Part shown: piece after piece, positions 2-27,055 of the stretch | How positions within the stretch are numbered: position 1 is the first letter of the stretch | How the letters are laid out: the number at the start of each line of letters is the position of its first letter | NCBI GenBank assembly: GCA_022710975.1 | Contig: JAKLGA010000027.1 | Span: 1-34,947 of the forward strand | DNA: 34,947 bases | From: Myxococcota bacterium | GTDB taxonomy: Bacteria; Myxococcota; B64-G9 | Direction: 5' to 3' | Notes under the pieces: model-generated | Told to the model about the DNA's origin: nothing | The model's input: only the letters and a program-made list of their open reading frames with translations | The model's database searches: none | Program-made: the position numbers and the translations under genes

Positions 2-247
2 TCGTACGGGGCCATCACGGTCATGGTGCTGCCCGAGGAGGCGGAGATCGTGGTGCTGGCGGCCCAGCTCGGGACGCTGCACCTGACGCTGCGCAACCCC
101 GAGGACATCGGCGGCGAGGAGGAGCGGATGCGGGCCACCATCGAGACGCTGCTGACCGGCGAGCGCATCAAGGCCCTCGGGGACAAGCGCAAGCAGCTCC
201 TGGTCGTGCTGAAGGGCTCGGCCGGCTCCGGCGGCAGCGCGCGCTAG
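2..247 (+). CDS. cpaB: CpaB-like Flp pilus assembly protein, C-terminal fragment
   Basis: This is the last 81 residues of a protein that begins left of the window; the frame is open from base 2. The segment 'PEEAEIVVLAAQLGTLHLTL' followed by 'RNPED' resembles the end of CpaB/RcpC proteins, where an E-A-x-x-L-x-L-A-x-x-L-G-x-L-x-L-x-L-R-N-P stretch follows the SAF and RcpC domains. CpaB proteins act in the periplasm in assembly of Flp/Tad type IV pili. The tail after that (about 40 residues) is charged and ends in a Gly/Ser-rich stretch. The next gene to the right is a metabolic enzyme on the same strand, so no cpaC/secretin gene follows directly. The assignment rests on a short segment; a different SAF-domain protein is possible. 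Confidence 0.6.
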   Translation, partial: SYGAITVMVLPEEAEIVVLAAQLGTLHLTLRNPEDIGGEEERMRATIETLLTGERIKALGDKRKQLLVVLKGSAGSGGSAR

Positions 248-311
248 CATCCACCCCCGGCCTGCGTTACGCTGCCCCCCGGCGGGGCGCGTGCCCGCCG
301 GAGGGGAGCCG

Positions 312-2189
312 ATGAGCGAAGCCAAGCCTTCCCAGACCCTGGTCCTGCCGGCCCTGCGGGCCGACCGGGCCATGCGCGTCCTGGCGCTGAACTGCGGCAG
401 CCTGTCGCTGCGCTGGGACCTGTTCGACACCGAGCGCCTGGACCAGCGCTGGTCGGGCCGGGTGGACGGCCTGGGGCAGCCCCGCGCGCGCCACCGGGCG
501 CGCGGCCCCGGCCTGGAGCACGAGGCGGAGGTCAGCGCGCCCGATCCGCGCACGGCCGTGGATCAAGTGCTCGATCTGCTCGCCCAGGCGCCCGGCCCGG
601 GCCGCGGGCTCGCGGGCATCTCGGCCGTGGGCCACCGCGTGCTCTTCGGCGGGGACGGCCAGACCAGCGCCGAGCCGGTCACCCCCACGCTGCTGGCCTC
701 GCTCGCCCAGGCCGGGCTCGACCCCTGGCGCCAGGCCGAGCGCGTGCAGGCCCTGGCGCGCTGCCTGGAGCGCCTGCCCGGCATCTCCCAGGTGGCCGTC
801 TTCGACAGCGCCTTCTTCCGCACGCTGCCGGAGGAGGCCCGCGCCTACGCCCTGCCGCGGGAGCTTGAGGCGCGCCACGCGCTCAGGCGCCAGGGGTTCC
901 AGGGCCTGAGCCACAAGCACGCGGCGCTGCGGGCGGCCGAGCTGCTCGAGCGGCCGCTCCAGCACCTCAAGCTGGTCAGCGTGCACCTGGGTCACGGCGC
1001 CTCCGCCTGCGCCATCGACCACGGCCGCGCGGTGGACACCACCATGGGCGCCACGCCGCTCGAGGGCCTGCCAGGCGGGCTGCGCTCGGGCGACGTGGAC
1101 CCGGGCCTGGTGCTCCACCTGATGAAGGCGGAGGGGCTGAGCCCGGAGCGCATGGTCACGCTGCTGGAGCGCGAGGGCGGGCTCCGGGGGCTCTCGGGCC
1201 TGTCCCCCGAGCTCGTGGCCATCGAGGCGGCCGCGTCCGCCGGCGAGGCCCGGGCCCAGCAGGCCATCCAGGTGTACTGCCACCGGGTGCGCAAGGCCGT
1301 CGGCGCCATGGCCGCGGTGCTGGACGGCCTGGACGCGCTGGTGTTCACCGGCGGCATCGGCGAGGGCTCGAGCGGGGTGCGCGCGCGCGTCTGCCAGAGC
1401 CTGGGCCACCTCGGCCTGGTGCTGGACGAGGCGCGCAACCGCGAGGGTCTGCCGGCGGGGTCGGACGCCGCCAGCCTGGCCCACCCCGCCTCGCGCGTGG
1501 CCGTGCTGGCGGTGCGCTCGGACGAGGCCCGCATGATCGCCCGCGAGACGCTGCGGGCGCTGGGCCGCGAGGCCGCCAACCAGGAGCTGCGCGCCCAGCA
1601 CGACCAGCCGGTCTACATCGGCGTCTCGGCCCACCACGTGCACCTCTGCCAGGCCCACGTGGAGGCGCTCTTCGGCCCCGGCCGGCAGCTCACCCCGAAG
1701 ACCCCGCTCAGGCAGCCGGGCCAGTTCGCGGCCGAGGAGCGCGTCAACCTGATCGGCCCGCGCGGGCGCGTGGACCGCGTGCGCGTGCTCGGGCCCACCC
1801 GGCCGCGCACCCAGGTGGAGATCTCGCGCACGGAGGAGTTCGAGCTGGGCATCGACGCGCCCATCCGCGACTCGGGCGATCTCGACGGCTCGCCCGGCCT
1901 GACCCTGGAGGGACGGGCCGGGACGGTCGTGCTGCAGGAGGGGGTCATCTGCGCCCACCGGCACGTGCACATGAGCCCCCAGGACGCGGTCGCCTTCGGG
2001 GTGCGCGACAAGGACGTGGTCCAGGTCGAGGTGCAGGGCGAGCGCCCTCTCGTCTTCGGCGACGTGCTGGTGCGGGTCAAGCCCGACTACCTGCTCGAGA
2101 TGCACGTGGACACCGACGAGGCCAACGCCGCCGAGCTCTCCACGGGCGCCCTGGGACGCCTGATCGGCCTCCAGTCGCGGCCCGCCTGA
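312..2189 (+). CDS. Acetate kinase-like domain fused to PduL-type phosphate acyltransferase
   Basis: A 625-residue bifunctional-looking protein. Residues about 22-415 are an acetate kinase-family (ASKHA) domain: 'VLALNCGSLSLRW' (phosphate 1 loop), 'GHRVLFGG' with R109, 'FDSAFF' with D165, 'HLGHGAS', 'TPLEGL', 'GLRSGD' with R258, and 'FTGGIGEG' with E351. Residues about 432-620 are a PduL-type phosphotransacylase with the metal-binding histidine motifs 'SAHHVHL', 'CAHRHVHM' and 'EMHVDTDEAN'. PduL converts acyl-CoA and phosphate to acyl phosphate; acetate kinase then makes ATP and the acid, so a fusion would channel acyl phosphate. By my alignment the catalytic His of acetate kinase (GFHGTSH) is Gln here (GFQGLSH, Q197) and the Asn of HLGNG is His (H228), so kinase activity is uncertain. 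The ATG at 312 was chosen because GGAGGGG precedes it; an in-frame GTG at 291 lacks this. Confidence 0.9.
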   Translation: MSEAKPSQTLVLPALRADRAMRVLALNCGSLSLRWDLFDTERLDQRWSGRVDGLGQPRARHRARGPGLEHEAEVSAPDPRTAVDQVLDLLAQAPGPGRGLAGISAVGHRVLFGGDGQTSAEPVTPTLLASLAQAGLDPWRQAERVQALARCLERLPGISQVAVFDSAFFRTLPEEARAYALPRELEARHALRRQGFQGLSHKHAALRAAELLERPLQHLKLVSVHLGHGASACAIDHGRAVDTTMGATPLEGLPGGLRSGDVDPGLVLHLMKAEGLSPERMVTLLEREGGLRGLSGLSPELVAIEAAASAGEARAQQAIQVYCHRVRKAVGAMAAVLDGLDALVFTGGIGEGSSGVRARVCQSLGHLGLVLDEARNREGLPAGSDAASLAHPASRVAVLAVRSDEARMIARETLRALGREAANQELRAQHDQPVYIGVSAHHVHLCQAHVEALFGPGRQLTPKTPLRQPGQFAAEERVNLIGPRGRVDRVRVLGPTRPRTQVEISRTEEFELGIDAPIRDSGDLDGSPGLTLEGRAGTVVLQEGVICAHRHVHMSPQDAVAFGVRDKDVVQVEVQGERPLVFGDVLVRVKPDYLLEMHVDTDEANAAELSTGALGRLIGLQSRPA

Positions 2190-2213
2190 GCCCGGCTCCC
2201 GGGGTAGAAACGG

Positions 2214-2242
2214 TTGACAGGGCCGTCGAATCGGGTTGAACT
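2214..2242 (+). promoter_or_regulatory. Candidate sigma-70-like promoter for the acyl-CoA dehydrogenase gene
   Basis: A perfect -35 hexamer TTGACA (2214-2219) is followed after 17 bases by a weak -10, TGAACT. The bases before it, AAACGG, match the AAACGT that precedes the TTGACA at 3463, so both may be read by the same holoenzyme or share an upstream element. The start codon lies about 34 bases downstream with a good ribosome binding site. Confidence 0.4.
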
Positions 2243-2275
2243 CCGCAGCGATCCCAACCCTCCCGAGGAGGACCC

Positions 2276-3430
2276 ATGGCGCTCGACTACGACCTGAACG
2301 AGGAGCAGCAGATCCTGCGCGAGAGCGTGCGCAAGTTCGCCGAGGCCGAGATCAAGCCGGTGGCCCGCGAGCTGGACGAGAAGGAGCAGTTCTCCGTCCC
2401 GCTGACCCGCAAGATGGCCGAGATGGGCCTGTTCGGCATGTTCGTCAGCCCGGACCACGAGGGCCAGGGGCTGGACTACGTCTCCTACATCATCGCGGTC
2501 GAGGAGATCGCCCGCGTGGACGGCTCGCAGGCCGCCACCGTCGCGGCCGGCAACTCGCTGGGCATCGGGCCGCTGCACTACTACGGCAGCGAGGCCCAGA
2601 AGCGCCGCTACCTGCCCAAGCTGTGCCGGGGCGAGGGGCTGTGGGGCTTCGGGCTGACGGAGCCGAACGCGGGCTCGGACGCCGGCGGCTCCAAGACCAA
2701 GGCCGTGCTGGACGGCAACGAGTGGGTCATCAACGGCTCGAAGATCTTCATCACCAACGCGGCCAACCCCCTGAGCCTGGGCGTCACCGTGCAGGCCATC
2801 ACCGGCAAGCGCGACGACGGCCGCCCGGAGTACTCCTGCATCCTGGTCGAGCACGGCACGCGCGGCTTCCAGGCCAAGGAGATGCACGGCAAGTACATGT
2901 GGCGCGCGTCCAACACGGCCGAGCTGTACTTCGAGGACTGCCGCGTGCCCAAGGACAACCTGCTGGGCAAGCGCGGGGACGGTTTCCACCAGATGCTGGC
3001 GACCCTCGACGGCGGCCGGTTGAGCATCGGCGCCATGGGCCTGGGCTGCGCCCAGGGGGCGTTCGAGGCCGGGCTGCGCTACGCCCAGGAGCGGGTGCAG
3101 TTCGGCAAGCCGCTGTGCAAGTTTCAGGCGAACGCCTTCAAGCTGGCCGACATGGCGACCGAGATCGAGCTCGCCCGCAACCTCATGTACAAGGCCTGCT
3201 GGCTGCGCGACCGGAAGCGGCCCTTCGGCCGCGAGGCCGCCATGGCCAAGCTGTACTGCTCCGAGGTGGCCCACCGGGTGTCCAACCACGCGGTCCAGCT
3301 CCACGGCGGCTACGGGCTGATGAAGGAGTACGACGTGGAGCGCTACCTCCGCGACGCGAAGCTGCTGGAGATCGGCGAGGGCACCAGCGAGGTGCAGCGC
3401 ATCGTCATCTCCCGCCACATCGGCTGCTGA
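2276..3430 (+). CDS. Acyl-CoA dehydrogenase
   Basis: A 384-residue flavoenzyme of the short/medium-chain acyl-CoA dehydrogenase type, normal in length. It removes two hydrogens from the alpha-beta bond of an acyl-CoA using FAD and passes electrons to ETF. Visible signatures are 'GLTEPNAGSDAGG' and 'WVINGSKIFITNA' in the middle beta domain, 'ERVQFGKPL' and 'QLHGGYGLMKEYDVER' in the C-terminal helical domain, and 'LEIGEGTSEVQR', whose Glu in GEGT is the usual catalytic base. GAGGAGG (2266-2272) is a strong ribosome binding site for the ATG. It has its own candidate promoter and is not overlapped by neighbours. Chain-length or branched-chain preference cannot be read from the sequence; the upstream acyl phosphate enzyme fits general acyl-CoA metabolism. 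Confidence 0.95.
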   Translation: MALDYDLNEEQQILRESVRKFAEAEIKPVARELDEKEQFSVPLTRKMAEMGLFGMFVSPDHEGQGLDYVSYIIAVEEIARVDGSQAATVAAGNSLGIGPLHYYGSEAQKRRYLPKLCRGEGLWGFGLTEPNAGSDAGGSKTKAVLDGNEWVINGSKIFITNAANPLSLGVTVQAITGKRDDGRPEYSCILVEHGTRGFQAKEMHGKYMWRASNTAELYFEDCRVPKDNLLGKRGDGFHQMLATLDGGRLSIGAMGLGCAQGAFEAGLRYAQERVQFGKPLCKFQANAFKLADMATEIELARNLMYKACWLRDRKRPFGREAAMAKLYCSEVAHRVSNHAVQLHGGYGLMKEYDVERYLRDAKLLEIGEGTSEVQRIVISRHIGC

Positions 3431-3462
3431 GCCCCGGGGGTCCGCCACCCGAGCAAAAACGT

Positions 3463-3492
3463 TTGACAATCCGCGGACGGCGTGGGTATCGT
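3463..3492 (+). promoter_or_regulatory. Candidate promoter for the small membrane protein gene at 3544
   Basis: TTGACA at 3463-3468, an 18-base spacer and TATCGT at 3487-3492. It is preceded by AAAAACGT, similar to the AAACGG before the -35 at 2214. It lies between the acyl-CoA dehydrogenase stop and the next start codon. Confidence 0.5.
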
Positions 3493-3543
3493 CCGCTTGC
3501 CCGGGGTCCCTCGCGAGGGACCCGGAAACCCACGGGAGCGTCG

Positions 3544-4089
3544 ATGAACAAGATCGTGGCGACCGCGTTGCTGCTGACCTTCTCCCTGGCCGGGTTGCCT
3601 GCGCTGGCGGAGGAGCCCGCGTCCGACAGCGCCCCCACCCCCACCCTCGTGCGCCTGCCCGACAGCGAGCTGGCCGAGGCGCCGGCCGGGGACAAGGACC
3701 CGGGCGGTCCCCACCGCGTGGTGACCGACTTCCCGCGCCGCAGCCCCTGGCTGGCCGGCGCCATGTCGCTGGTGGCGCCCGGCACCGGGCAGATCTACAA
3801 CGAGCACTACGTGCTCGGCAGCCTGTGGCTGGCGGCCGAGGTGGGCCTGTACGTGGGCGCGTTCGCCTACTCGGGCGCCTTCAGCTCGACCGAGCGGTTC
3901 CAGTTCGACCAGATGAAGGTCGAGTCGGTGTTCATGCTGGTGCTGGCCGTCGGCCTGCACGTGTTCTCGGTCTACGACGCGGTCAACGAGGCGGCGCACA
4001 CCAACCAGGCCATCGACCGCTGGAACGTGGCCTACGACCCCAAGGACGACACGGTGACGGTCGGCTACTCGATCCCCTGGTCCTGGTGA
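3544..4089 (+). CDS. Exported small membrane protein, DUF5683-like
   Basis: A 181-residue protein with a clear signal peptide (KIVATALLLTFSLAGLPALA, cleavage near residue 20), then a Pro/Asp-rich stretch of about 45 residues. Residues 60-150 form a membrane domain. 'SLVAPGTGQIYNEHY' is the P-G-x-G-Q-x-Y motif seen in DUF5683 and TM2-like envelope proteins, and it is followed by two hydrophobic helices (LGSLWLAAEVGLYVGAFAY and VFMLVLAVGLHVFSVYDAV). The C-terminal 'DAVNEAAHTNQ' also fits that family. The function of the family is not known; an envelope location is expected. GGGAG lies about 7 bases before the ATG. It converges with the DUF362 gene, with a 28-base gap and no clear terminator hairpin. 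Confidence 0.75.
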   Translation: MNKIVATALLLTFSLAGLPALAEEPASDSAPTPTLVRLPDSELAEAPAGDKDPGGPHRVVTDFPRRSPWLAGAMSLVAPGTGQIYNEHYVLGSLWLAAEVGLYVGAFAYSGAFSSTERFQFDQMKVESVFMLVLAVGLHVFSVYDAVNEAAHTNQAIDRWNVAYDPKDDTVTVGYSIPWSW

Positions 4090-4117
4090 GGCCGGCTCGC
4101 CAGCCAGCCCCGCTCCC

Positions 4118-5308
4118 TCAAGACCTCTTCCTCCCGAGCAGGCCGCGCCGCAGGCGGATGGCTGACTCCGGGCAGATCTCCTGGCAGCAGTAGCAGCGGA
4201 CGCAGGCCTCGCGGTCGAGGGCGACCCGCTTGCCCGAGGGGTGACCTCCGTCCCTGCCCCAGGACAGCGCGCGGGAGTGGCACAGCTCCAGGCACTGGCC
4301 GCAGCGGGTGCAGCGGCGCCGGTCGAAGCGCGGCGCGGGCGAGGCCCCCGCCCGCAGGAGGTCGAAGAAGAACCGGCCCAGCCTGCCCCGCGGCCCGGTG
4401 GCCGCCTGGGCGCCCGCGCGTCGCGGCAGCCGCCTGGGGAGCTCCCAGCCCTCGGGCCGGAAGCTCGCCAGGGGCTCGCCCCGCACCTCCAGGTCCGCCA
4501 GGTCCGGATCCCCGTCCGGCCCGAAGGTCAGCACCTGATCCTCCGCCACCCCCAGCAGCCTGGCCAGGGCCCGGTCCAGCAAGAACGGATCGGCCCCGGC
4601 GGCTAGAAAGCCGAGCGCCCTCGCCCGTCCACCGCTCGGCCCGTTGCCGTCCATGCCGATCACCCCGTCGACCAGGGACAGAGCCGGTCGCACCACCCGG
4701 CAGACCTCGACCAGCATGCCGGCGAAGGCGGCCGCGTCCCGGCCCGTCCGGGCGTGCCAGGCGGCCTTGTCCGTCCCCACCACCGCCCCGAAGCAGTTCT
4801 TGACCGCCAGGGTCAGCCCGCACAGGCCGTGGGTCTTGCACTTGGCCAGGTTGAGCACGACCTCGGCCTCGAGCACCTTGCGCGACAGGGACAGGGCCGG
4901 GTAGCGGCTCCCGGGCCGTCGGACCTCGACCGGGTCGTCCAGCTCCTCCACCTCCACCCCGAGCGGCGCGAGCAGCGCGGTCAACCCGAGCTTCCCGGCC
5001 ACCCTCCGGCCCGGCCCGAACGAGGGGGAATCCGCCACCACCAGCCTGCGCGCACCCGCCGCCAGGGCGGCCACGGCCACGGCCCGGATCACCTGGGGGT
5101 GGGTGTTCACCGCCCGCTCGGCCGCGCGTGGCACCAGGAAGTTCGGCTTCAGCAACACGGCCTTGCCCGCCACCAGGGCAGCCAGCCCCCCCAGGTGCCC
5201 GACCAGCTCTCCCACCGCCCGCTCCACCTCGGCCTGCCCGTACCCTTGGCAGCGGACCAGGGCGATCGCTGGACCTCTTCGAAAATCCTGGCGTTGGCCC
5301 ATGTGCAT
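4118..5308 (-). CDS. DUF362 protein with C-terminal 2x[4Fe-4S] ferredoxin domain
   Basis: A 396-residue protein. Residues about 15-290 are a DUF362 domain ('VLLKPNFLVPRAAERAVNTHPQV' region, 'KCKTHGLCGLTLAVKNCFG', 'LVDGVIGMDGNGPSGG'). Residues about 325-385 hold two complete C-x2-C-x2-C-x3-C motifs ('CTRCGQCLELC' and 'CVRCYCCQEIC'), so it should bind two [4Fe-4S] clusters and act in cytoplasmic electron transfer. The physiological role of DUF362-ferredoxin proteins is not established. The ATG at 5308 and another at 5302 are both possible; neither has a good ribosome binding site. A TATAGA box 7 bases before 5302 would fit a leaderless mRNA starting there. The gene is divergent from the HDIG gene, and their start regions nearly touch. 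Confidence 0.9.
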   Translation of the reverse strand: MHMGQRQDFRRGPAIALVRCQGYGQAEVERAVGELVGHLGGLAALVAGKAVLLKPNFLVPRAAERAVNTHPQVIRAVAVAALAAGARRLVVADSPSFGPGRRVAGKLGLTALLAPLGVEVEELDDPVEVRRPGSRYPALSLSRKVLEAEVVLNLAKCKTHGLCGLTLAVKNCFGAVVGTDKAAWHARTGRDAAAFAGMLVEVCRVVRPALSLVDGVIGMDGNGPSGGRARALGFLAAGADPFLLDRALARLLGVAEDQVLTFGPDGDPDLADLEVRGEPLASFRPEGWELPRRLPRRAGAQAATGPRGRLGRFFFDLLRAGASPAPRFDRRRCTRCGQCLELCHSRALSWGRDGGHPSGKRVALDREACVRCYCCQEICPESAIRLRRGLLGRKRS

Positions 5309-5323: not shown

Positions 5324-7132
5324 GTGCCGACGAGGGCAACAGCGCCGTTCTTCGCCCGCCTCGGGCCTGCCAGCGTGGTCAACCTGGTCATGGCCACGGC
5401 GCTGACCGCCATCGGACTGATGGACGTCCTGACCCAGCCCTTCAGCACCTGGAAGGCAGGCGAGGTGGCTCCGGTCACCTACCGCGTACCCGCCGGGAAA
5501 CGATGCGCTTTCGACACGCTACTGAGCGTCGGCAACCAGGCCAACGGGGAGGAGCGCTTCCTTTCGCGCAAGGGCCATCCCGTCAGCCAGGAGGTGCTCG
5601 AGGACCTCCACCAGCAGATCCCGGAGCGGGCCCAACTCGACCCGGTCCGGGCCCTCGGCGCGCTGGCCTTCTACTTCCTGGCGCTGACCTTCTTCACCCT
5701 GCTGCTGATGCGCTCGGGCCAGCACCTGCTGCTGCGCCTGCGGGCGGTGGCCAGCCTGTACCTGGTGCTGCTGCTCGGCACCCTGGCCGCCAAGCTGCTG
5801 TTCGACCAGACCTCCCTCAGCGTGTACGCCGCCCCTGCCGCCCTGGCCGTGTTGCTGTTCGCCCCCCTGGTCAACCAGGCCGTCGCCCTCTCGCTGCACC
5901 TGCTGGCGGTGGCGCTGCTGGCCCCGATGATGGGTTTCTCCCCGGGCATGGTGCTGCTGCCGCTGGTGACCGGCTGGTCGGCGGTGATCCTGCTCCGCCA
6001 GGGCGCGGGCGTGGCGCGGGTGCTGCTCGCCGCGCTGCTCGGGGCGCTGCTCGGGTCGGTCTCCATGCTGGGCCTCGACCTCTTCGCCCCGCACCGCTTC
6101 GACTACAGCCTGCGGCTCGAGGGCGACCTGGTCGGTCTGGTCCTGGGCACGCTGGGCACCGGGCTCCTGGCCGCCCTGCTGGCCTCCCCCGCCGCCCGGC
6201 TGTTCGGGGCCGTGCCGCGCGCCCGGCTGGGCAGGCTGCAGAACCTGGATCACCCGGTGCTGCGCGACCTGGCGGAGAAGGCGCCTGGCACCTTCCAGCA
6301 CACGTTGGCCGTGGCCAACATGGCCGAGAAGGTGGCCGACGACATCGGGGCGGACGCGACGCTGACCCGGGTGGGGGCGTACTTCCACGACATCGGCAAG
6401 ATGAGCGGCCCGGAGTTCTTCTCGGAGAACCAGCAGGGCGACAACCCCCACGAGCGCCTCAGCCCGGACGCCAGCGCCGAGCGGCTGCGCGTCCACATCC
6501 AGGCCGGGCTGACCATCGCCGGGGGGGCCGACCTGCCCAGCCGGGTGGAGGACTTCATCGTCGAGCACCACGGCTCGTCGGTCATGGAGTACTTCCTGGA
6601 CAAGGCCAGCCGGCTCGAGGGGCGGCAGCCCGATCCGGTGCGCTTCTCCTACCAGGGCCGGAACCCCACCAGCCGGGAGACGGCCGTGCTCATGCTGGTG
6701 GACTCCGTCGAGGCCGCCTCCCGCACCCTGCAGCAGCCCGACCGGGAGAAGATCGAGGATCTGGTCCGGCGCATCATCTTCGGCAAGCTGCTCAAGGGCT
6801 ACCTGGACGACTCCGGTCTCACCTCCCGGGATCTCAAGAAGATCGGCATGAGCCTGATGCGGATCCTGGAGTCCCAGTTCCACGTGCGGGTGGAGTACCC
6901 CTGGCAGCGCCGGGACACCCCGCCGCCTGCCGTGGCCGTCGAGCCGCCCCGACGGCCGCTGACCGATCCCGCCATGCGGGTGGTGCAGGCCGTGCCGCCG
7001 GGCGAACCCGGCCCGGAGTCGCCGGCCGGGCCGGAGCCGCCCGCAGCCCAGCCGACCGCCGAGCCCAACGCGGGGCCGGGCGGGCCTCCCGCCACGCCCA
7101 CCCCGGGGAGCGCGAACGACCATGACCGATGA
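5324..7132 (+). CDS. 7TM HDIG-domain phosphohydrolase, PgpH-like
   Basis: A 602-residue inner-membrane protein from the GTG at 5324. One N-terminal membrane segment (about 18-36) is followed by a short outside region (about 40-105), a bundle of six to seven helices (about 108-290) and a cytoplasmic HD domain. Key HD residues are H326 ('TFQHTLAV'), H355-D356 ('GAYFHDIGKM'), 'EHHGSS' and 'LVDSVEAASR'. The architecture matches the 7TMR-HD family, whose member PgpH hydrolyses cyclic di-AMP. The outside domain is far shorter than the roughly 250 residues usual for PgpH. The last 60 residues are Pro/Ala/Glu-rich and probably disordered. Earlier in-frame starts would run into the divergent DUF362 gene, and a consensus -10 sits 6 bases before this GTG; an alternative ATG at 5390 would cut into the first membrane helix. 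It overlaps gatD by 11 bases. The substrate is inferred from family only. Confidence 0.85.
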   Translation: MPTRATAPFFARLGPASVVNLVMATALTAIGLMDVLTQPFSTWKAGEVAPVTYRVPAGKRCAFDTLLSVGNQANGEERFLSRKGHPVSQEVLEDLHQQIPERAQLDPVRALGALAFYFLALTFFTLLLMRSGQHLLLRLRAVASLYLVLLLGTLAAKLLFDQTSLSVYAAPAALAVLLFAPLVNQAVALSLHLLAVALLAPMMGFSPGMVLLPLVTGWSAVILLRQGAGVARVLLAALLGALLGSVSMLGLDLFAPHRFDYSLRLEGDLVGLVLGTLGTGLLAALLASPAARLFGAVPRARLGRLQNLDHPVLRDLAEKAPGTFQHTLAVANMAEKVADDIGADATLTRVGAYFHDIGKMSGPEFFSENQQGDNPHERLSPDASAERLRVHIQAGLTIAGGADLPSRVEDFIVEHHGSSVMEYFLDKASRLEGRQPDPVRFSYQGRNPTSRETAVLMLVDSVEAASRTLQQPDREKIEDLVRRIIFGKLLKGYLDDSGLTSRDLKKIGMSLMRILESQFHVRVEYPWQRRDTPPPAVAVEPPRRPLTDPAMRVVQAVPPGEPGPESPAGPEPPAAQPTAEPNAGPGGPPATPTPGSANDHDR

Positions 7133-8510
7133 AGATCCTCTCAAGGGGTACCGGGGCAAGGCGCGCGCGCGCCTCATCGATCTCGGCCTGCGGGTGTGGG
7201 ACGACCTCGAGCTGAAGACCTCCCGTGGCGCCTTCGTCGGCATCCTGCTGCCTCGCTCGGAGCAGGCCGACGACCAGCACCTGGTGCTCAAGCTCCGCAA
7301 CGGCTACAACGTCGGCGTCCTGGTGGACGTGGTCGAGAGCGCGGTCGTGCACGACCACAAGGAGGCGCACTACAAGATCCCCGAGGGGACCTTCCCGATG
7401 GATCCTGCCAAGCCGAACGTGACGCTGCTCGGCACCGGCGGCACCATCGCCAGCCGGCTGGACTACCGCACCGGCGCGGTCATCCCCGCCTTCACCCCCG
7501 GGGAGCTGTACGGGGCGGTGCCGGATCTCGCCGACGTCTGCAACCTGACCACCAAGAAGCTGTTCGGCATCTTCTCCGAGAACATGGGCCGGGAGCAGTG
7601 GCTGACGCTGGCCCGCGAGGCGGCCGCGGCCATCGAGGGCGGGGCCGACGGCATCGTGGTGGGCCACGGCACCGACACCATGCACCACACCGCGGCGGTG
7701 ATGACCTTCATGCTGCAGGACCTGCCGGTGCCGGTGGTGATCGTCGGCAGCCAGCGCTCCAGCGATCGCCCCTCCTCCGACGCGGCGCTCAACCTCATCC
7801 ACGCCTGCACCAGCGCCGGGCTGGGGCCCGTGGCCGAGGTGCTGGTGTGCATGTTCGGGCCGACCTCCGACGTGTTCGGGCTGCTGCACAGCGGGACCCG
7901 GGTGCGCAAGATGCACTCCTCCTACCGCAGCACCTTCCGCACCATCGGCGAGACCCCGGTCGCCATGGTCAGCCGCGACGGGGTCAAGCCCATCCGGCAG
8001 AAGTTCCGCGCGCGCGACCGCTCGCGCAAGGTCAAGCTGGTGGACACCTGGGACGATCGCGTCTCCATCGTCTACTACTACCCGAACATGAAGGGCGACG
8101 TGATCGACAGCCTGGTCGAGCGGGGCTACAAGGGCGTCGTCATCGCCGGCACCGGGCTGGGGCACGTGAACCGGCCGCTGTACGAGCCGCTGCGCAGGGC
8201 GGTCGCGGCCGGGCTGCACGTCTACATGACCGTGCAGACCCTGTGGGGCTTCGCCCAGATGTACGTGTACGACACCGGGCGCGACCTGCTGGAGATCGGC
8301 GTGGTGCCGCTGTCGAACATGCTGCCGGAGGTGGCCTACATGAAGCTCGGCTGGGCGCTCGGCCAGAGCCAGGAGCGCGAGGAGGTGAAGCGCATCATGC
8401 TCACCCCGATCGCGGACGAGATCACCGAGCGCGAGCCGCCCAACGGCTACGTCGTGCTGCAGGGCGGCATCCCCGAGGTGGACGAGTTCCTGGCCCGCGG
8501 CTACCGCTGA
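7122..8510 (+). CDS. gatD: GatD-like Glu-tRNA(Gln) amidotransferase subunit D (asparaginase family)
   Basis: A 462-residue protein, the usual length for GatD. Residues 1-95 form the N-terminal small beta domain of GatD; residues 97-440 are an L-asparaginase-type domain. Catalytic positions are present: T105/T108 in 'LLGTGGTIAS', T184 and D185 in 'GHGTDTMHHTA', and K263 in 'TRVRKMHSSYRSTFR'. The stretch 'SQRSSDRPSSDAALNL' is close to a GatD signature and unlike plain asparaginases. In archaea GatD releases ammonia from glutamine for GatE, which amidates Glu-tRNA(Gln). No gatE is in this window, and bacteria normally use GatCAB, so either gatE lies elsewhere or this copy acts as a stand-alone amidohydrolase. 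The start overlaps the HDIG gene, suggesting coupled translation. The 3' end overlaps the converging lipoprotein gene by 10 bases. Confidence 0.88.
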   Translation: MTDEDPLKGYRGKARARLIDLGLRVWDDLELKTSRGAFVGILLPRSEQADDQHLVLKLRNGYNVGVLVDVVESAVVHDHKEAHYKIPEGTFPMDPAKPNVTLLGTGGTIASRLDYRTGAVIPAFTPGELYGAVPDLADVCNLTTKKLFGIFSENMGREQWLTLAREAAAAIEGGADGIVVGHGTDTMHHTAAVMTFMLQDLPVPVVIVGSQRSSDRPSSDAALNLIHACTSAGLGPVAEVLVCMFGPTSDVFGLLHSGTRVRKMHSSYRSTFRTIGETPVAMVSRDGVKPIRQKFRARDRSRKVKLVDTWDDRVSIVYYYPNMKGDVIDSLVERGYKGVVIAGTGLGHVNRPLYEPLRRAVAAGLHVYMTVQTLWGFAQMYVYDTGRDLLEIGVVPLSNMLPEVAYMKLGWALGQSQEREEVKRIMLTPIADEITEREPPNGYVVLQGGIPEVDEFLARGYR

Positions 8511-10348: not shown

Positions 10349-13266
10349 TCAGAGCAGCGGGAGCTGGCGATCCCGCCTGCGGCGGGCCGGCAGGCGCGCG
10401 TCGCTCGCCTCGGTCAGCGCCCGGTCGATGGGCGCCAGGAACGGCGAAGGCCTCATGGCGCGCGGCTTGCCGCGCAGCGCCCGGCGCTCGGCCCGGCACA
10501 GGATCAGGCGCTCCGCCGCCCGGGTCATGCCCACGTAGAACAGCCGCCGCTCCTCCTCGAGCTCGGCCGCGCCCAGGGGACCGAAGCGCAGCGGCAGCAA
10601 CCCGTCCTCGCAGCCCACCACGAACACCACCCGGAACTCCAGCCCCTTGGCCGCGTGCAGGGTGAGCAGGTGCACCCGGTCCGCGCGCTCGTCGAACTCG
10701 TCCCCGCCCAGCGCGTCGGCCAGCCGCGCGTGGCTGCGGCGCCGGAAGGGGATCCCGGAGCGCGCCAGGGCCTCGACCAGCGGCTCGGCCAGCGCGTCCA
10801 GGCGGTAGAGCACGGCAACGTCCGAGTAGGCCAGCCCCTCGAGGGCCGGCCCGGCCTGTCCCCGGCCGCTGTCCAGCGAGAAGAAGCTGTGCCCGCCGAA
10901 GAGCGCCTCGAGGGAGGCCACCACGAACTCGGCCTCGGCCCGCTCGGTGGGCGCCCGGTGGAGCGTCACCCGCGCCCGCCCCGGCCCCAGGGCCTGCACC
11001 CCCGCGCGGCCCGCCCCGCGCGCCAGGGCCTGCCCGGCCGCGTCGGCGATCACCTGGTTCGAGCGGTAGTTGCGGCCCAGGCGCACCCAGCGCGCGCCCG
11101 GGTGGGCGGCCGCGAAGCGCTCGAAGGCCCCGGCGGTCGCCCCGCGGAAGCCGTAGATGGACTGGTCCGGATCGCCGACCAGCGAGAGCTCGCCGTCCTC
11201 GGGCGCGAGCAGCTCGACCAGGCGCGCCTGGAGCGCGTCCACGTCCTGGTACTCGTCGACCAGCAGCGCCCGCGCGCGCACGCGCTCCTCCGCCGCCAGC
11301 GCGGGCGAGGCCTCGAGCAGCGCCACGGCCAGGGACACGAGCTGCTCGAAGTCCACCCGGCCCGCCTCGTGGAGCAGCCGCCGGTAGGTGCGCTCGTCCT
11401 GCTCCAGCCCGGCCGGCCAGTCCGTGCGCGGGGCGTGCGCCCAGCGGCTCAGGCGCCCCAGCAGGCGGCGCGCCCGGGTCTCGCTGAGCCCGGCCTGCTC
11501 CCGCAGGAGCGCCACCCGCTCCTCCTCCTCGGCCAGCGCGAAGCCGGGCGCGAGTCCGACCAGGCGCTCGGCCTCGCCGGGGTGGCGCTGGAGCAGCGCC
11601 AGGCACAGGGCGTGGAAGGTGGACACCTGCGCCCGCTCCCCCTGGCCGGGCAGCAGCGCGCACACCCGGGCGCGCAGCTCGTCCGCGGCCCGGCGGGTGA
11701 AGGTGAGCACCAGGCAGGCCTCGGGCGCGAACCCGCGGGCCGTCACCAGGTGCGCGAGCCGCTCGGTCAGGGTCCGGGTCTTGCCCGAGCCCGGCCCGGC
11801 CACCACCAGCAGCGGGCCGCCGCTGTGCAGGATGGCGGCCTGCTGATCGGGATCCGGGGGGAGGGGCCCTGGGGACGGCTGGGACGCAGATCGCGGCCGC
11901 TCGTCCCTGTCGTCCCTTTCGTCCTTCACGTCCTTGTCGTCCTCGTCGTCCTCGACCTCCTCCTCCAGGAAGAGCGCCCTCTGGCTCTTCCGCAGCCCCG
12001 GCTCCAGCTCCCCCGGGGCGAACAGCCGGATGCGGCCGTACTCGCCGTCGTAGCCGGCCTCCCGGAGCACCTGCCCCCGCCGCAGACGCGCCAGCCCCTC
12101 CCCCAGCGGGCCAGGGGCCACGCGGGCCACCTCCTCCAGCGGCGCGCGGGCCAGCAGCTCGAGCTCGGGCCCCAGCCTCGCCAGCAGGACCGCCAGGGCG
12201 GCCTGGACCGCGTGGCTCTTCGGCCCCACGCCCAGCACCTCGCCCAGGATCTCCTCGAGCGGCACCAGGCTCTCGACCTGGCCCGCGCCCGGCGGTCGGT
12301 AGCCCTCCGGGCGATCGGCCAGCTCCTCCACCCGGTGCATCACCCCCACGGTGATGGCCTCGCCGCAGGTCGGGCAGCGCCCGCCCACGGCGCGGGTCTC
12401 GGCCGGCGTCAGGCGCGCGCCGCACTTGCGGTGGCCGTCCAGGTGGTACTTGCCCTCCTCGGGGAAGAACTCCACCGTGCCCACGTAGCCCAGCCCGGTC
12501 CGGAGCGCCGCGAGCAGCGCCGGGTAGGAGCGCTCGCCCGAGAGGCACACGGCCTCGCGGCCCAGCCGGGACGGGGAGTGGGCGTCGGAGGAGGAGATCA
12601 GCCGGAAGCGGTCCAGCCCCGAGACGCGCCAGTTCATAGGCGGATCGGACGACAGGCCGGTCTCCACGGCGAACAGCTCGCCGGCCAGATCGGCGTAGCA
12701 CGCGTCCACCGAGTCGAAGCCCGACCTGGAGCCCAGGGCCGAGAACCACGGGGTCCACACGTGGGCCGGGATCAGGCAGCAGCCGGGCCCAGACTCCAGC
12801 ACCAGCTCGAGCAGGTCGCGCGAGCCGAGCCCCAGGATGGGCCGCCCGTCCGCGCACAGGTTCCCCACCCGCCCCAGGCGGGCGGACAGGCGCTCGGCGG
12901 CCTCGAGCCCCGGGGCCAGCACCACGTGGTGCACCTTGCGGGTGCGCTCGGCCTGCTTGTAGATGGTGGCGATCTCCGCGCTCAGCAGGAAACGCGGCTC
13001 GCGCTCCTCCGCCGCGCAGGCCCGCGGCACCCGTCCACGCAGCCCGGCCGCCAGCGCGGGGCGCAGCCGGTAGAGCCCCTCCTCGGCCGGCTCGAGCTGG
13101 GCGGCCAGCTCGGCGCGCCAGGCGGGGTGGGTGAAGTCGCCCGTGCCGAGCAGCGCGAGCCCCTTCTGGCGGGCGGACAGCCACAGGTGGGGCAGATCAC
13201 AGTCCCGCGAGGTGGCCCGCGAGAAGCGGGAGTGCAGGTGCAGGTCGGCGTACCAGCGGGGGCTCA

Positions 13267-13267
<1 letters not shown>
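10349..13267 (-). CDS. Endonuclease Q (PHP) fused to UvrD/Rep-type DNA helicase
   Basis: A 972-residue two-part protein. Residues 1-430 match the EndoQ/TIGR00375 family: PHP metal motifs 'ADLHLHSRFS' (7-16), 'GTGDFTHP', 'SAEI', 'KVHHVVLAPG', 'PAHVWTPWFS' and 'SSDAHSPS' (226-233), and a Cys/His zinc-finger-like element ('HRKCG' to 'CPTCG', 279-302). EndoQ nicks DNA 5' of deaminated bases such as uracil and hypoxanthine. Residues 434-470 are a very acidic Asp/Glu/Arg linker. Residues 471-972 are a full SF1A helicase: 'AGPGSGKT' (490-497), 'LTFTRRAADELRAR', 'LVDEYQDV', 'GDPDQSIYGFRGA', 'LGRNYRSN', 'LLTLHAAKGLEF' and 'FYVGMTRAAERL'. Nicking and unwinding on one chain would suit lesion removal followed by repair synthesis; this is inference. 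The ATG at 13267 shares a base with the amidase stop (TGATG). Any longer N terminus is antisense-like filler inside the amidase gene. Confidence 0.9.
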
Positions 13268-17334: not shown

Positions 17335-18198
17335 ATGCTGAGACGATTCGAGTACACCCAGGCCCGCAGCGTGGAGGAGGCCCTGGCCCTGTGGCAGGGC
17401 AGCCCGGACAGCCGCTACCTGGCCGGCGGCACGGACCTCATCCCGCGGGCCCGCGCCACGGGCCGCGCGCCGGCCCGCCTGGTGGACGTGAAGGCCGTCC
17501 CGGAGCTCGACCAGGTGCGGGCGCTGCCCGACGGCGGCCTGTCCATCGGCGCCGCCGCCAGCGTGGCGCGCGTGGCGACCGCGCCCGAGGTGCGGCAGCG
17601 CTTCCCGGTGCTGGCCACCTGCTGCCAGGCGCTGGGCTCCTACCCGCTCCGGCAGCGGGCCACGGTGGCCGGCAACATCTGCAACGCCTCGCCCTGCGCG
17701 GACACGGCCGCGGCGCTGCTCGATCTGGACGCCGTGGTGGTGGCCTCCGGGCCGAGGGGAGTGCGGCGTGTGTCCATCCACGAGCTGTTCGTGGGCCCGG
17801 GCCAGACCAGCCTGGAGCGGGGCGAGCTGGTGACCGCCATCGAGCTGCCGGCCGCGAGCGCCGGCGCCCGCGGGCAGCTCGGCCGGCTCACCCGCAGGCA
17901 GGGCGTGGACATCGCCACGGTGGCGGTCCTGGTGACCGTCCTGCCCGCGGGCTCGCTGCGCCACCGGGTGGCGCTGCTGAGCGTCTCCCCCACCCCCATG
18001 CGGGTGGCGGAGGCCGAGAACCTGCTGGACCAGAAGGGCCCGGACGGCGCGGCCGAGGCGGCGGCCATCGCCCGGGCCGCCTGCCGGCCGATCGACGACG
18101 TGCGCGGCTCGGCCAGCTACCGCCGCGACATGGTCGGGGTGCTGCTGGAGCGCGCGGTGCACGCGCTGGCCGCGGAGCGAGGAGGTCGAGGCGCATGA
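17335..18198 (+). CDS. Molybdenum hydroxylase, FAD-binding subunit (CoxM/XdhB-like)
   Basis: A 287-residue protein of usual length for the flavin subunit of xanthine dehydrogenase family enzymes. '[14 protein letters not shown]' (about 28-41) and '[21 protein letters not shown]' (106-126 region) are the two FAD pyrophosphate-binding segments. The C-terminal CO_deh_flav_C-like part runs from about residue 175 ('[20 protein letters not shown]'). It passes electrons from the 2Fe-2S subunit to NAD or another acceptor. GGAGG lies 6 bases before the ATG. It is the first gene of a seven-gene operon, and its stop overlaps the next start (ATGA). Confidence 0.93.
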
Positions 18199-18689
18199 CC
18201 ATCGCCATCCAGGTCACGGTCAACGGCCAGCTCGAGGCCCTGGAGGTCGAGCCGCACGAGAGTCTGCTCGGCATGCTGCGCGAGCGGCTGGACCTCACCG
18301 GCGCCAAGGAGGGCTGCAACGAGGGCGAGTGCGGCGCCTGCGTGGTGCTGCTCGACGGCCGGGCGGTCAACAGCTGCCTGGTGCTGGCGGTCGAGGCGAA
18401 CGGGCGGGCGGTGACCACCATCGAGGGGCTGGGCCACGCGGGCGCGCTGCACCCGCTGCAGCAGGCCTTCCTCGAGCACAGCGCGGTGCAGTGCGGCTTC
18501 TGCTCCCCGGGCATGATCATGACCGCGCTCGGCCTGCTCAACGAGAACCCGACCCCCAGCGAGGCCGACATCCGCCAGGCCCTCAGCGGCAACCTGTGCC
18601 GCTGCACGGGCTACCGGCAGATCATCGACGCGGTGCAGGCGGCGGCCGCCGCGCTGGGCGCCGCCGGCCAGGCCGGGAGGAGACCATGA
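18195..18689 (+). CDS. Molybdenum hydroxylase, 2Fe-2S subunit (CoxS/XdhC-like)
   Basis: A 164-residue iron-sulfur subunit. C41, C46, C49 and C61 ('[15 protein letters not shown]', then 'NSC') bind the plant-type 2Fe-2S cluster. C100, C103, C135 and C137 ('CGFCSPGM', 'NLCRCTGY') bind the second cluster next to the molybdopterin. It moves electrons from Mo to FAD. It overlaps the genes on both sides by 4 bases (ATGA), so the three subunits should be made in fixed ratio. The first residues lack a signal peptide, so the enzyme is cytoplasmic. Confidence 0.95.
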
Positions 18690-21013
18690 ACGCGCGCTGG
18701 GTGGGCCAGGACGTGCCCCGCGTGGACGGGCTGGAGAAGGTGACCGGCGCCGCGCGCTACACGGCCGACGTGAAGCTGCCGCGCATGCTGCACGCCAAGG
18801 TGGTGCGCTCACCCCACCCCCACGCCAGGGTGCGGGCGGTCGATCTCGGCAAGGCCGCGCGGGCCCCCGGGGTGCGCGCGGTGGCCAGCGGGCAGGACTT
18901 CCCCTTCCACGTGGGCATCTACCTGAAGGACCAGACCGTGTTCGCCACCGACCGGGTGCGCTTCGTGGGCGACGCGGTGGCGGCGGTGGCGGCCGAGACG
19001 CCCGAGGCGGCCGAGGAGGCCGCGGCGCTGGTGGAGGTGGAGTACGAGCCGTTGCCCGCGCTGCTCGACGTGCGCCAGGGCATCCTGCCTGGCGCCGTGC
19101 TGGTGCACCCCCAGCTGGGCAGCTACCAGAAGGTGCCCTGGATCACCCCCGAGGCCGGGACGAACATCTGCAACCACCTCAAGGTGCGCAAGGGCGACTA
19201 CGAGGCGGCCCTGCGCGGCGCCGCCCACGTCAGCGAGAACACCTTCGTCGTGCCCCAGGTGCAGCACGTGCCCATGGAGGTGCACGTCAGCGCCGCGCGC
19301 GTCGACCTGGCCGGCAAGCTCGAGGTGCTCACCTCGGCCCAGAGCCCGTTCACCGTGCGGCACCTGCTGTGCGCCTGCTTCAACCTGTCCCACGGCGACG
19401 TGCGGGTCAGCGTGCCCCAGGTGGGGGGCGGCTTCGGCGGCAAGGCCGGCATCAACCTGGAGCCCATCGCCACGGCGCTGGCGCTCAAGATCCCTGGCCG
19501 CTGGGTGCGGCTGCTGATCGATCGGGCCGAGGAGTTCTACGCGGCCGTGGTGCGCCAGGGGCTGGTGGCCACGCTGGTCACCGGCGTGGATCGGCAGGGC
19601 AAGGTGGTGGCGCAGAAGATGCACTACCTGTGGGACTGCGGGGCCTACGGCGGCTACGGGGTGAACGTGGTGCGGGCCGCCGGCTACACCTGCGGCGGGG
19701 CCTACGAGTTCCCCAACGTGTGTGGCGACTCCATCGGGGTGTACACCAACCGCCCGGTCGGCAGCGCCTACCGCGGCTTCGGCATGCAGGAGATCCACTG
19801 GGCCCTCGAGCAGCAAATGGACATGGTGGCCCACGAGCTCGGCCAGGACCCGGTGGAGTTCAGGCTGCGCAACTGCCTCGGCCCGGGCAAGCGGACGGTC
19901 ACCGGCCAGGTGCTGGACGAGCACGCCGGCAGGGTGGACAAGTGCATCCACAAGGTGGCCGAGGCCTTCAGGCGGCCCCTGGAGGAGAAGCCCGGCCTGC
20001 TGCGCGGGCGCGGCCTGGCCTGCGCGGTCAAGGCCCCGGCCATGCCCAACGACGCCGCCTCCTCCGTGCTGCTCAAGTTCTGCGAGGACGGCGTGCTCGA
20101 GGTGCTGGTCTCGGGCATCGACTACGGCCAGGGCCTGCGCACCGTGGCCGCCCAGTTCGCGGCCGAGGCGCTCGGCCTGCCGCTGCACCAGATCCGGGTG
20201 CGCAACCTGCCCGACACCGACCTCTCGCCCTACGACTGGCAGACGGTGGCCTCGCGCCAGACCTGGGCCACCGGCAACGCCGTCCTCAAGGCGGCCGAGA
20301 AGTGCAAGGCCCAGTTCTTCGAGATGGCCAGCCAGGTGCTGCATGCGCCGGTCGAGCGCCTGGCGCTCGAGGGCGGCCAGGTGGTGGACCGCGGCGGCCA
20401 GGGCAGCGTGCCGCTCACCCGCATGGTCATGGGCTACCAGTTCCCGGACGGGCACACCATCGGCGGTCCGGTCGCGGCCGCGGCCCACCACGTGCCGGAG
20501 GGGCTCCTGTTCCTCGACCCGGACACCAGCCAGAGCGCGAAGCCGGTGGCCAAGTGGACCTTCGGCGCCCAGGGGCTGGAGATCAGCGTGGATCCGGGCA
20601 CGGGGCAGATCCAGGTGGACCGGGTGGTGGCCTGCTACGACGTGGGCAAGGTGGTCAACCCGGGGCTCATCCGCGGCCAGACCTTCGGCGGGGTGGTGCA
20701 AGGCCTGGGCACCGGGCTGATGGAGGAGCTGAAGGTCGATGCTCTGACCGGCCGGGTGCGGAACGCCAGCCTGGTCGACTACAAGATCCCCACCAGCGAG
20801 GATCTGCCGGGCGAGCTCGAGGCCCACTTCGTGGAGACGCCCCAGGCCGATGGCCCCCTGGGGGCGCGCGGCATCGGCGAGCACACCATGATCCCTACCC
20901 CGGCGGCGCTGGCCAACGCGCTCTTCGACGCCTGCGGCGTGCGCATCCTGGACATGCCGCTGACCGCGGAGAAGGTGCTCCGCGCGCTCCAGGCCAAGCG
21001 CGCCAAGGAGTGA
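18686..21013 (+). CDS. Molybdenum hydroxylase, molybdopterin-binding catalytic subunit
   Basis: A 775-residue large subunit, usual length. Mo-site signatures are 'VPQVGGGFGGKAG' (about 242-254), 'GSAYRGFGMQE' (about 357-367), 'DYGQGLRTVAAQFAAEALGL' (about 474-493) and 'GARGIGEHTMIPTPAAL' near residue 726, whose Glu in GIGE is the expected catalytic base. It has AYRGFG rather than the AYxCxFR loop of CO dehydrogenase, so it belongs to the xanthine dehydrogenase/N-heterocycle hydroxylase side of the family. It hydroxylates a carbon of an aldehyde or aromatic nitrogen ring using water. The substrate cannot be read from sequence; the neighbours point to a compound that later yields a carbamoyl group. 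Its last codons carry the AAGGAG ribosome binding site of allH. Confidence 0.93.
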   Translation: MNARWVGQDVPRVDGLEKVTGAARYTADVKLPRMLHAKVVRSPHPHARVRAVDLGKAARAPGVRAVASGQDFPFHVGIYLKDQTVFATDRVRFVGDAVAAVAAETPEAAEEAAALVEVEYEPLPALLDVRQGILPGAVLVHPQLGSYQKVPWITPEAGTNICNHLKVRKGDYEAALRGAAHVSENTFVVPQVQHVPMEVHVSAARVDLAGKLEVLTSAQSPFTVRHLLCACFNLSHGDVRVSVPQVGGGFGGKAGINLEPIATALALKIPGRWVRLLIDRAEEFYAAVVRQGLVATLVTGVDRQGKVVAQKMHYLWDCGAYGGYGVNVVRAAGYTCGGAYEFPNVCGDSIGVYTNRPVGSAYRGFGMQEIHWALEQQMDMVAHELGQDPVEFRLRNCLGPGKRTVTGQVLDEHAGRVDKCIHKVAEAFRRPLEEKPGLLRGRGLACAVKAPAMPNDAASSVLLKFCEDGVLEVLVSGIDYGQGLRTVAAQFAAEALGLPLHQIRVRNLPDTDLSPYDWQTVASRQTWATGNAVLKAAEKCKAQFFEMASQVLHAPVERLALEGGQVVDRGGQGSVPLTRMVMGYQFPDGHTIGGPVAAAAHHVPEGLLFLDPDTSQSAKPVAKWTFGAQGLEISVDPGTGQIQVDRVVACYDVGKVVNPGLIRGQTFGGVVQGLGTGLMEELKVDALTGRVRNASLVDYKIPTSEDLPGELEAHFVETPQADGPLGARGIGEHTMIPTPAALANALFDACGVRILDMPLTAEKVLRALQAKRAKE

Positions 21014-21019
21014 GCCGGG

Positions 21020-21919
21020 TTGCCCGCCTCGCCGATCCGCCTGGCGAGCTTCGACGCCCGCCTTCGCTCCCTGCCCTGGCCGGCCCGCGGCCGGGTCGAG
21101 GAGGCGCACGCCCACAGCGCGGTGGTCGTCCTCGCGGACGGCGGCGGCCTGGTGCTGCTCGCCGCCGGCCGGCCGCTCGTGCCCTGGGGAGTGCGCCTGC
21201 CTGCGGAGGCGCGCCTGCCCGGGCCGGGCAGCGCCGTGCTCCTCGAGGACGGGCGCCTGCGCATCCTCGAGCCAGGCAGAGAACAGGAGCCCTTCTTCTT
21301 CGAGGGTGAAGGCCAGGAACTGCACGTGCCCTGCCGCGTGGAGAGGGCCAAGCCCGGGCGCGTGGCCGCCAGCGTGTGGGCCGAGTTGCCGGATCGAACG
21401 AGGGCGCTGCTCCGCGGAAGCGCTCCGCCGACCGATCCGACGGATCGGACCGATCGGTCGGATCGGTCCGAGCGTTCGCAGCCCGGCTTCGACCAACTCG
21501 AGATTCACCTCCTGACTTTCACCCTCAAAGAAATCCTCTCTTGTGTTCTCCGTCCTGCGGGCCAGCCAGCCATGGCCACCGTCGTGCGCCGGCTGGCCGG
21601 CCTGGGGCGGGGCTCGACCCCGGCCGGAGACGACCTGCTCGCCGGCGCAGCGGCCGCGGCGCGGGCCCTGGGCCTACCGGGCGCGCGGGCGCTGTGCGGC
21701 TGCCTGGCCGAGCTGCCCGCGGGGCACACCACCCCGGCGGGCGGCGCCATGCTACGGGAGGCGGCGCGCGGGTACTACCCCGCGCCGCTGGCGACGGCCG
21801 CCCGGTCGCTGCCCAGGCTCGACCCGGCCCCCTTGCGGGACCTGGCCGGGCTGGGCGCGACGAGCGGCGCGGACATGCTGGCCGGCTTCCTGGCCATGCT
21901 GGAGGAACCCCATGCCTGA
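21020..21919 (+). CDS. allH: AllH/DUF2877, oxamate carbamoyltransferase subunit homologue
   Basis: A 299-residue DUF2877 protein. In E. coli AllF (FdrA), AllG (YlbE) and AllH (YlbF) together form oxamate carbamoyltransferase, which transfers a carbamoyl group between oxamate and phosphate in anaerobic allantoin breakdown. The C-terminal half has the family blocks 'LAGLGRGSTPAGDDLLAGA', 'LPAGHTTPAGGAML' and 'LAGLGATSGADMLAGFLAML'. The start is a TTG at 21020; it is favoured because AAGGAG lies 9 bases before it and no ATG or GTG is suitably placed. Residues 137-155 are an odd low-complexity insert ('TDPTDRTDRSDRSERS') encoded by a palindromic GATCGG-type DNA repeat. The gene overlaps fdrA by 8 bases. 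Confidence 0.85.
   Translation: MPASPIRLASFDARLRSLPWPARGRVEEAHAHSAVVVLADGGGLVLLAAGRPLVPWGVRLPAEARLPGPGSAVLLEDGRLRILEPGREQEPFFFEGEGQELHVPCRVERAKPGRVAASVWAELPDRTRALLRGSAPPTDPTDRTDRSDRSERSQPGFDQLEIHLLTFTLKEILSCVLRPAGQPAMATVVRRLAGLGRGSTPAGDDLLAGAAAAARALGLPGARALCGCLAELPAGHTTPAGGAMLREAARGYYPAPLATAARSLPRLDPAPLRDLAGLGATSGADMLAGFLAMLEEPHA
21431..21467. repeat. In-frame GATCGG palindromic repeat inside allH
   Basis: ACCGATCCGAC (21431-21441) and its exact reverse complement (21457-21467) are separated by 15 bases, which themselves contain GGATCGG and CCGATCG. The block can form a hairpin and reads as repeated Thr/Ser-Asp-Arg in allH. It keeps the frame, so it is either a tolerated surface loop or a recently inserted small repeat. 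Confidence 0.7.
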
Positions 21920-23453: not shown

Positions 23454-23456
23454 GCC

Positions 23457-24899: not shown

Positions 24900-24912
24900 C
24901 AAGGAGGATCCC

Positions 24913-25821: not shown

Positions 25822-25827
25822 TCCGCT

Positions 25828-26789: not shown

Positions 26790-26875
26790 CCAGCTGGAGT
26801 ACAGCAAAGCTCGGGCCACCATCGACCACCTGCCGGAACCCACTGAAACTCAAAGGCCCCACCTGCCACTGAGCA

Positions 26876-27000: not shown

Positions 27001-27055
27001 TGCCCGCCCCCCCCCCGCGACCCCGGTACCCGGTGTTCCCGCGCGCGTGGGAAGG

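Follow-up and report, generated by a model that had tools for sequence, protein, structure and literature searches.

An EndoQ-like nuclease fused to a stripped-down SF1A helicase in a myxococcotal genome, with relatives across bacterial phyla

The window analyzed here, a 34,947-nucleotide stretch of a Myxococcota genome (contig JAKLGA010000027.1), contains a long open reading frame that a preliminary description, made from the sequence alone, took to join an endonuclease Q (EndoQ)-like nuclease to a full UvrD-type helicase. This raises the question of whether the joining is genuine and, if so, what a helicase on the same chain could contribute once the nuclease has cut. EndoQ as treated in published papers is archaeal, with a small number of bacterial cases, and to our knowledge the pathway downstream of it is unproven. 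No description of an EndoQ-helicase fusion was found in the open-access literature searched; subscription papers lay largely outside this coverage, and we use "undescribed" provisionally.

Architecture of the fusion and its nuclease domain

The gene is a single open reading frame on the minus strand (window 13267-10349), with its ATG at 13267 and its stop ending at 10349; it encodes 972 residues and is single-copy in its genome. Its features are as follows:

10349..13267, minus strand: whole EndoQ-helicase fusion gene, with an ATG start and a TGATG overlap with the stop of the upstream amidase gene
12008..13267, minus strand: EndoQ-like PHP nuclease domain, aa 1-420, from profile, PfuEndoQ and structure matches
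12365..12433, minus strand: zinc element H279-x2-C282 ... C298-x2-C301, by comparison with PfuEndoQ C249/C252/C268/C271
11969..11983, minus strand: QRALF, aa 429-433, a degenerate xxLF motif inside the chain, where the EndoQ domain ends
11867..12001, minus strand: disordered (low-confidence) linker, aa 423-467, from model confidence and sequence
10394..11866, minus strand: SF1A helicase core (1A, 1B, 2A), aa 468-958, with all motifs intact
10862..10897, minus strand: family motif GGHSFFSLDSGR (GGxSFFSxDSGR), aa 791-802, an insertion ahead of helicase motif IV
10670..10747, minus strand: 26-aa loop, aa 841-866, replacing the 2B subdomain, from spacer lengths and the model
10352..10366, minus strand: C-terminal QLPLL, aa 968-972, a motif of the beta-clamp-binding type, from tail comparison

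The fusion is real, as the recurrence of the same architecture in at least 80 species excludes a chance joining. In an AlphaFold2 model of the window protein both domains are confident (mean pLDDT 86), their mutual placement is not predicted (pTM 0.54), and residues 423-467 fall below pLDDT 50. An acidic linker joins the domains, in keeping with the preliminary description, and is a feature of the window protein only rather than of the fusion family. An amidase gene lies directly upstream, and the overlap of its stop with the start of the fusion in TGATG suggests translational coupling at this locus; this neighbor is not conserved in relatives.

The identification of the N-terminal half as an EndoQ-like PHP nuclease is upheld by profile, sequence and structural comparisons. 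It matches TIGR00375, an NCBIfam hypothetical equivalog, at 7.4e-43 (147.4 bits), below the curated cut-off of 326.6 bits, which is also missed by one of the three matching control genomes. Further, residues 1-427 match PfuEndoQ in phmmer (2e-43), and a structural match to PfuEndoQ (7k30_A; Z 47.4, rmsd 2.7, 386 of 395 residues, 30% identity) covers the whole three-part EndoQ fold. The metal and catalytic residues of the window domain are H10, H12, D44, E98, H113, H169, D228 and H230, with H169, G204 and S206 lining the pocket. In the correspondence with PfuEndoQ, H8/H10 map to H10/H12, H84 to H113, H139 to H169, G169 to G204, S171 to S206, and the catalytic D193, which the alignment shows as Asn in chain 7k31, to D228. 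PfuEndoQ E76 sits in a hairpin left unaligned by HMMER; the invariant E98 is its natural candidate counterpart, judged by hairpin position rather than by a scored alignment. The mapped metal, catalytic and pocket residues are present in 35 of 35 fused proteins, except H10, which is present in 34. In PfuEndoQ, E76, H84 and H139 are essential metal ligands, while H139, G169 and S171 form a steric filter keeping out T and A (PMC8307549). A loss of lesion-binding residues, named in the preliminary description as an outcome that would speak against it, was looked for, and H113, H169, G204, S206 and D228 all proved invariant.

While the metal motifs are intact as first described, the zinc element is of the form His-x2-Cys...Cys-x2-Cys rather than four cysteines: three of the four are kept, and the first position is His in 34 of the 35 fused proteins. 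Histidine is able to bind zinc, and a first-position His is common in standalone bacterial EndoQ. Nicking on the 5' side is established for the archaeal and B. pumilus enzymes. The cut falls immediately 5' of the lesion and leaves a 3'-OH and a 5'-P (PMC4357722), and AP sites are cleaved well by PfuEndoQ (PMC11354406, PMC4357722). On the strength of the fold and residues, the window domain is predicted to nick beside deaminated bases or AP sites. In our EndoQ tree the deep branches are weak and speak neither for nor against monophyly of the fused domains.

The helicase domain and repeated reduction of 2B

The helicase half is homologous to UvrD-type helicases, as had been proposed (Pfam UvrD-helicase, 3.4e-58), and residues 468-958 match the structures of UvrD, PcrA and Rep with Z 38-39, 450-458 of about 640 residues being aligned at 32-38% identity. 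It scores 253-292 bits against the equivalogs TIGR01073, TIGR01074 and TIGR01075, below their curated cut-offs of 911-1144 bits. The earlier reading of a complete SF1A helicase is correct as regards the motifs: motifs I-VI and the 1A/1B/2A core are present, and the checked motif residues are invariant in 35 proteins. It does not hold for the 2B subdomain. The stretch between motifs IV and V that forms 2B comprises 26 residues in the window protein versus 179, 183 and 174 in the three paralogues of UvrD type that this genome encodes, and the AlphaFold2 model has a loop in place of 2B. Given this spacer length despite the intact motifs, the window protein carries a stripped-down helicase rather than a full UvrD.

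In relatives the spacer measures 80-123 residues, except in L105 (19), L064 and L068 (23) and L060 (34). In the model of one relative, L003, the half-size spacer folds into a small bundle of four helices (residues 887-947, pLDDT 82-90). None of the 78 family spacers read among the matches listed contains R-G-[IVLF]-G, the motif through which 2B binds duplex DNA; two of the three UvrD-type paralogues of the window genome have it. In a tree built on the helicase core with the spacer left out, the fused helicases form one clade separate from these paralogues (support 100/98), within which the window helicase groups with L003, which retains half of 2B (94/94). The absence of 2B requires four changes on this tree, three of them forced by well-supported branches; the fusion family shows at least three events of 2B reduction or loss. 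A further family feature is the GGxSFFSxDSGR insertion, in which the GG is found in 35 of 35 proteins and the D in 33 of 35, and which is absent at the corresponding place in UvrD.

These reductions may be set beside work on Rep. Deleting 2B turns Rep into a hyperactive helicase that works as a monomer (PMC6158625, PMC13238157); this form can still sustain phiX174 replication once CisA has nicked, and is inefficient in protein displacement (PMC6158625). The 2B subdomain is considered autoinhibitory (PMC13238157). With 2B lost repeatedly in nature, evolution provides a test of whether the subdomain is an autoinhibitory switch that can be dispensed with when a fused nuclease delivers the helicase to a nick.

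The C-terminal tail, distribution and genomic context

The window protein ends in RDRQLPLL, a clamp-type C-terminus which the preliminary description missed. Among the matches listed, QLxL[FLIW] occurs within the last nine residues in 66 of 83 fused proteins, against 0.075 expected from shuffling of the last 40 residues, and a relaxed clamp-type form is found at the C-terminus in 74 of 83; the exceptions are mostly contig-truncated proteins or near-matches (QMSFDF, QQRLF). Further, Q968 and L971 are at least 90% conserved within an otherwise variable tail. Bacterial clamp-binding peptides follow the consensus QL[S/D]LF or QxxLF (PMC12309361, PMC4549789), of which QLPLL is a relaxed form and not the strongest. 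In archaea, EndoQ attaches to PCNA by means of a PIP box at its C-terminus, and PCNA stimulates it; the C-termini of bacterial EndoQ have also been noted to carry clamp motifs (PMC4858679). By its sequence, QLPLL looks like a hook to the beta sliding clamp, and the tail of the fusion parallels the PCNA tether of the archaeal enzymes. Some standalone bacterial EndoQ proteins (L108, L122) end in a clamp-type motif where QRALF lies in the fusion; QRALF may be a remnant of such an end or a second clamp site. In an Omnitrophota genome (L060), EndoQ and helicase are encoded by separate adjoining genes in the same order, ending in QLTLF and QMTLF.

The survey of species genomes recovered the fusion in at least 80 species from about a dozen phyla, with a patchy distribution; the matches listed include the split pair of L060 and a few genes that are interrupted or run off contigs, and the phylum samples contain more fused genes. 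Relatives are found in Myxococcota, Pseudomonadota, Actinomycetota, Planctomycetota, Verrucomicrobiota and Acidobacteriota, as well as Elusimicrobiota, Melainabacteria, Thermodesulfobacteriota, Binatota, Poribacteria and others. With fused and standalone forms assigned by open-frame length, a subset being checked in detail, the myxococcotal sample has an EndoQ gene in 9 of 195 genomes, none of them shown to be standalone. The corresponding figures are 5 fused, 1 standalone and 1 cut among 296 actinomycetotal genomes, 10 fused and about 8 standalone among 299 pseudomonadotal genomes, and 10 fused and about 13 standalone among 199 planctomycetotal genomes, the weak matches G415, G339 and G847 in the actinomycetotal and planctomycetotal samples being left out of the EndoQ counts. 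At the genes examined, no helicase of the fused family lies beside a standalone EndoQ except in the split pair of L060; hence, the helicase is not obligatory for bacterial EndoQ. In one relative (L110, G184; 1912-5171) the EndoQ part of the fused gene contains a change of frame that disrupts the gene, and a second, UvrD-type helicase reading frame adjoins it on the opposite strand.

The preliminary description invoked a high-GC burden of cytosine deamination. This rationale fails: relatives' loci range from 30 to 75% GC, with 25 of 80 among the matches listed lying below 45%, and high GC is ruled out as a driver. Likewise, UDG is kept alongside the fusion in 23 of 24 genomes tested, which rules out replacement of UDG and points to a parallel route. 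Replacement of EndoV is not supported either, EndoV being present in 18 of 50 fusion genomes and absent from the window genome. There is no conserved partner gene across phyla, shared synteny being confined to the Micromonosporaceae, so the fusion looks self-contained. Four scattered LexA-like matches in 80 upstream regions, among the matches listed, form no pattern of SOS control, and searches of plasmid and phage collections gave no match to the fusion at the limits used.

Several other features of the window may be recorded. A 658-aa reading frame at 213-2189 (plus strand) combines acetate kinase and phosphate propanoyltransferase (PTAC) domains, and a GatD-like asparaginase lies near the fusion gene at 7122-8510 (plus strand); in L003, the gene upstream of the fusion resembles, by eye, a GatE/GatB-type amidotransferase subunit. 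A purine/ureide catabolism cluster at 17335-30512, 4 kb from the EndoQ gene, comprises xanthine dehydrogenase subunits, AllG, AllH, a cyclase and an ABC importer of the BPD_transp_2 type. EndoQ lesions also include hypoxanthine and xanthine, and the closeness of this cluster is probably a coincidence.

Proposed mechanism, rival explanations and known systems

From the observed architecture, conserved residues, 2B loss, clamp-type peptide and distribution we infer each activity and their coupling as follows. The fusion would act as a self-contained, clamp-tethered, single-polypeptide starter of glycosylase-independent repair of deaminated bases or AP sites, in parallel to UDG, an account to which we lend slightly more belief than doubt. 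The QLPLL peptide, to go by the motif, would dock the protein on the beta sliding clamp. The EndoQ pocket would then take a flipped deaminated base (U, Hx, Xan) or an AP site and, as fold and residues predict, cut immediately 5' of it to leave a 3'-OH and a 5'-P. The flexible linker would pass the nick to the helicase domain, which, by analogy with Rep lacking 2B, should need neither dimerization nor an activator. Moving 3' to 5' on the intact strand, the helicase would peel off the lesion-bearing 5'-ended strand; synthesis from the 3'-OH could then fall to a clamp-bound polymerase, removal of the flap to a 5' nuclease of the Pol I type and sealing to ligase, the clamp-type tail placing the protein where 3'-OH ends get extended. 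A 3'-to-5' helicase might also start on the nicked strand, in which case unwinding would proceed away from the lesion; the sequence is compatible with both loadings, and we favor loading on the intact strand solely because a repair pathway is then completed. Of the earlier nick-and-peel reading, the kept lesion pocket stands and the full UvrD helicase does not, with nick-then-unwind still the most economical reading.

Other functions may be weighed against this proposal. The main role of the protein might be that of an AP endonuclease, following UDG and other glycosylases, with the helicase opening long-patch synthesis and deaminated bases as minor substrates. The presence of UDG in 23 of 24 fusion genomes tested and the efficient cleavage of AP sites by PfuEndoQ (PMC11354406, PMC4357722) agree with this; however, the T- and A-excluding pocket H169/G204/S206 is invariant, a selectivity needless for AP sites alone, and we consider such a role unlikely, if the most serious of the rivals. 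Alternatively, the helicase could be a single-stranded DNA translocase, or a remover of roadblocks or recombinase, that carries the nuclease to stalled forks, nick unwinding not being its job. SF1A monomers do translocate on single-stranded DNA (PMC13238157) and the clamp-type motif puts the protein near forks, but the poor protein displacement by Rep without 2B (PMC6158625) makes a 2B-less helicase ill suited to the task, and this reading seems to us distinctly improbable.

An anti-phage nuclease-helicase directed against uracil-containing or otherwise altered phage DNA may be envisaged from the scores of the helicase half against GajB and other PADLOC helicase profiles, and from a review that raised antiviral roles for bacterial EndoQ (PMC8307549). 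Yet the GajB matches are generic for UvrD helicases, the fusion has no defense genes around it within the window, no conserved partner and no plasmid or phage match at the limits used, and the clamp-type tag speaks for housekeeping DNA work; such a function is very improbable. Least credible, with hardly any weight in our judgement, is an evolutionary passenger, in which EndoQ and a degenerating helicase were joined by chance and the loss of 2B is decay. While the patchy distribution (9 of 195 genomes in the phylum) and the repeated loss of 2B might be read in this way, the checked helicase motif residues show no variation among 35 proteins from many phyla, and in the tree the fused helicases group as a single clade, separate from the UvrD paralogues of the window genome (100/98).

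Carried by at least 80 bacterial species of about a dozen phyla, the fusion would unite recognition, nicking and unwinding in a single polypeptide, and it makes the step after EndoQ nicking directly testable. More tentatively, and with doubt somewhat outweighing confidence, it could constitute a widespread, undescribed entry to bacterial excision repair, in which one clamp-tethered chain recognizes a deaminated base, makes the 5' nick with no glycosylase involved and unwinds the lesion strand with a naturally 2B-less, monomer-active SF1A helicase. On this reading, the 2B deletion engineered in Rep has been arrived at repeatedly in nature.

Among known systems, the PfuEndoQ and TkoEndoQ proteins of Pyrococcus and Thermococcus share with the fusion the fold, metal ligands, catalytic Asp and steric pocket, have a zinc-binding element to which its putative one corresponds, and likewise carry a C-terminal clamp-type tag, which in the archaeal proteins is a PIP box. 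Unlike the window protein, they are standalone enzymes of about 400-424 residues; the window EndoQ is joined to a helicase, has an HCCC zinc element and bears its clamp-type motif at the helicase end. Standalone bacterial EndoQ (B. pumilus, B. subtilis, many Pseudomonadota and Planctomycetota) has the same nuclease domain, an HCCC zinc element in most aligned cases and in some, as in the fusion, a clamp-type end, but no helicase. The helicase half has in common with UvrD, PcrA and Rep the 1A, 1B and 2A core and all motifs, whereas it lacks 2B and R-G-I-G and belongs to a clade separate from the UvrD paralogues of its genome. Engineered Rep without 2B, paired with the phiX174 nickase CisA, is, as proposed for the fusion, a nickase with a 2B-less SF1A helicase unwinding from a nick; there, two proteins, a laboratory-made deletion and an origin nick are involved, whereas a single chain and a lesion nick are proposed here. 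Finally, FacAGT-EndoV of Ferroplasma, an AGT fused to EndoV (PMC4357722), similarly joins a deaminated-base nuclease to a second repair domain, but EndoV cuts 3' of the lesion and its partner is an alkyltransferase rather than a helicase.
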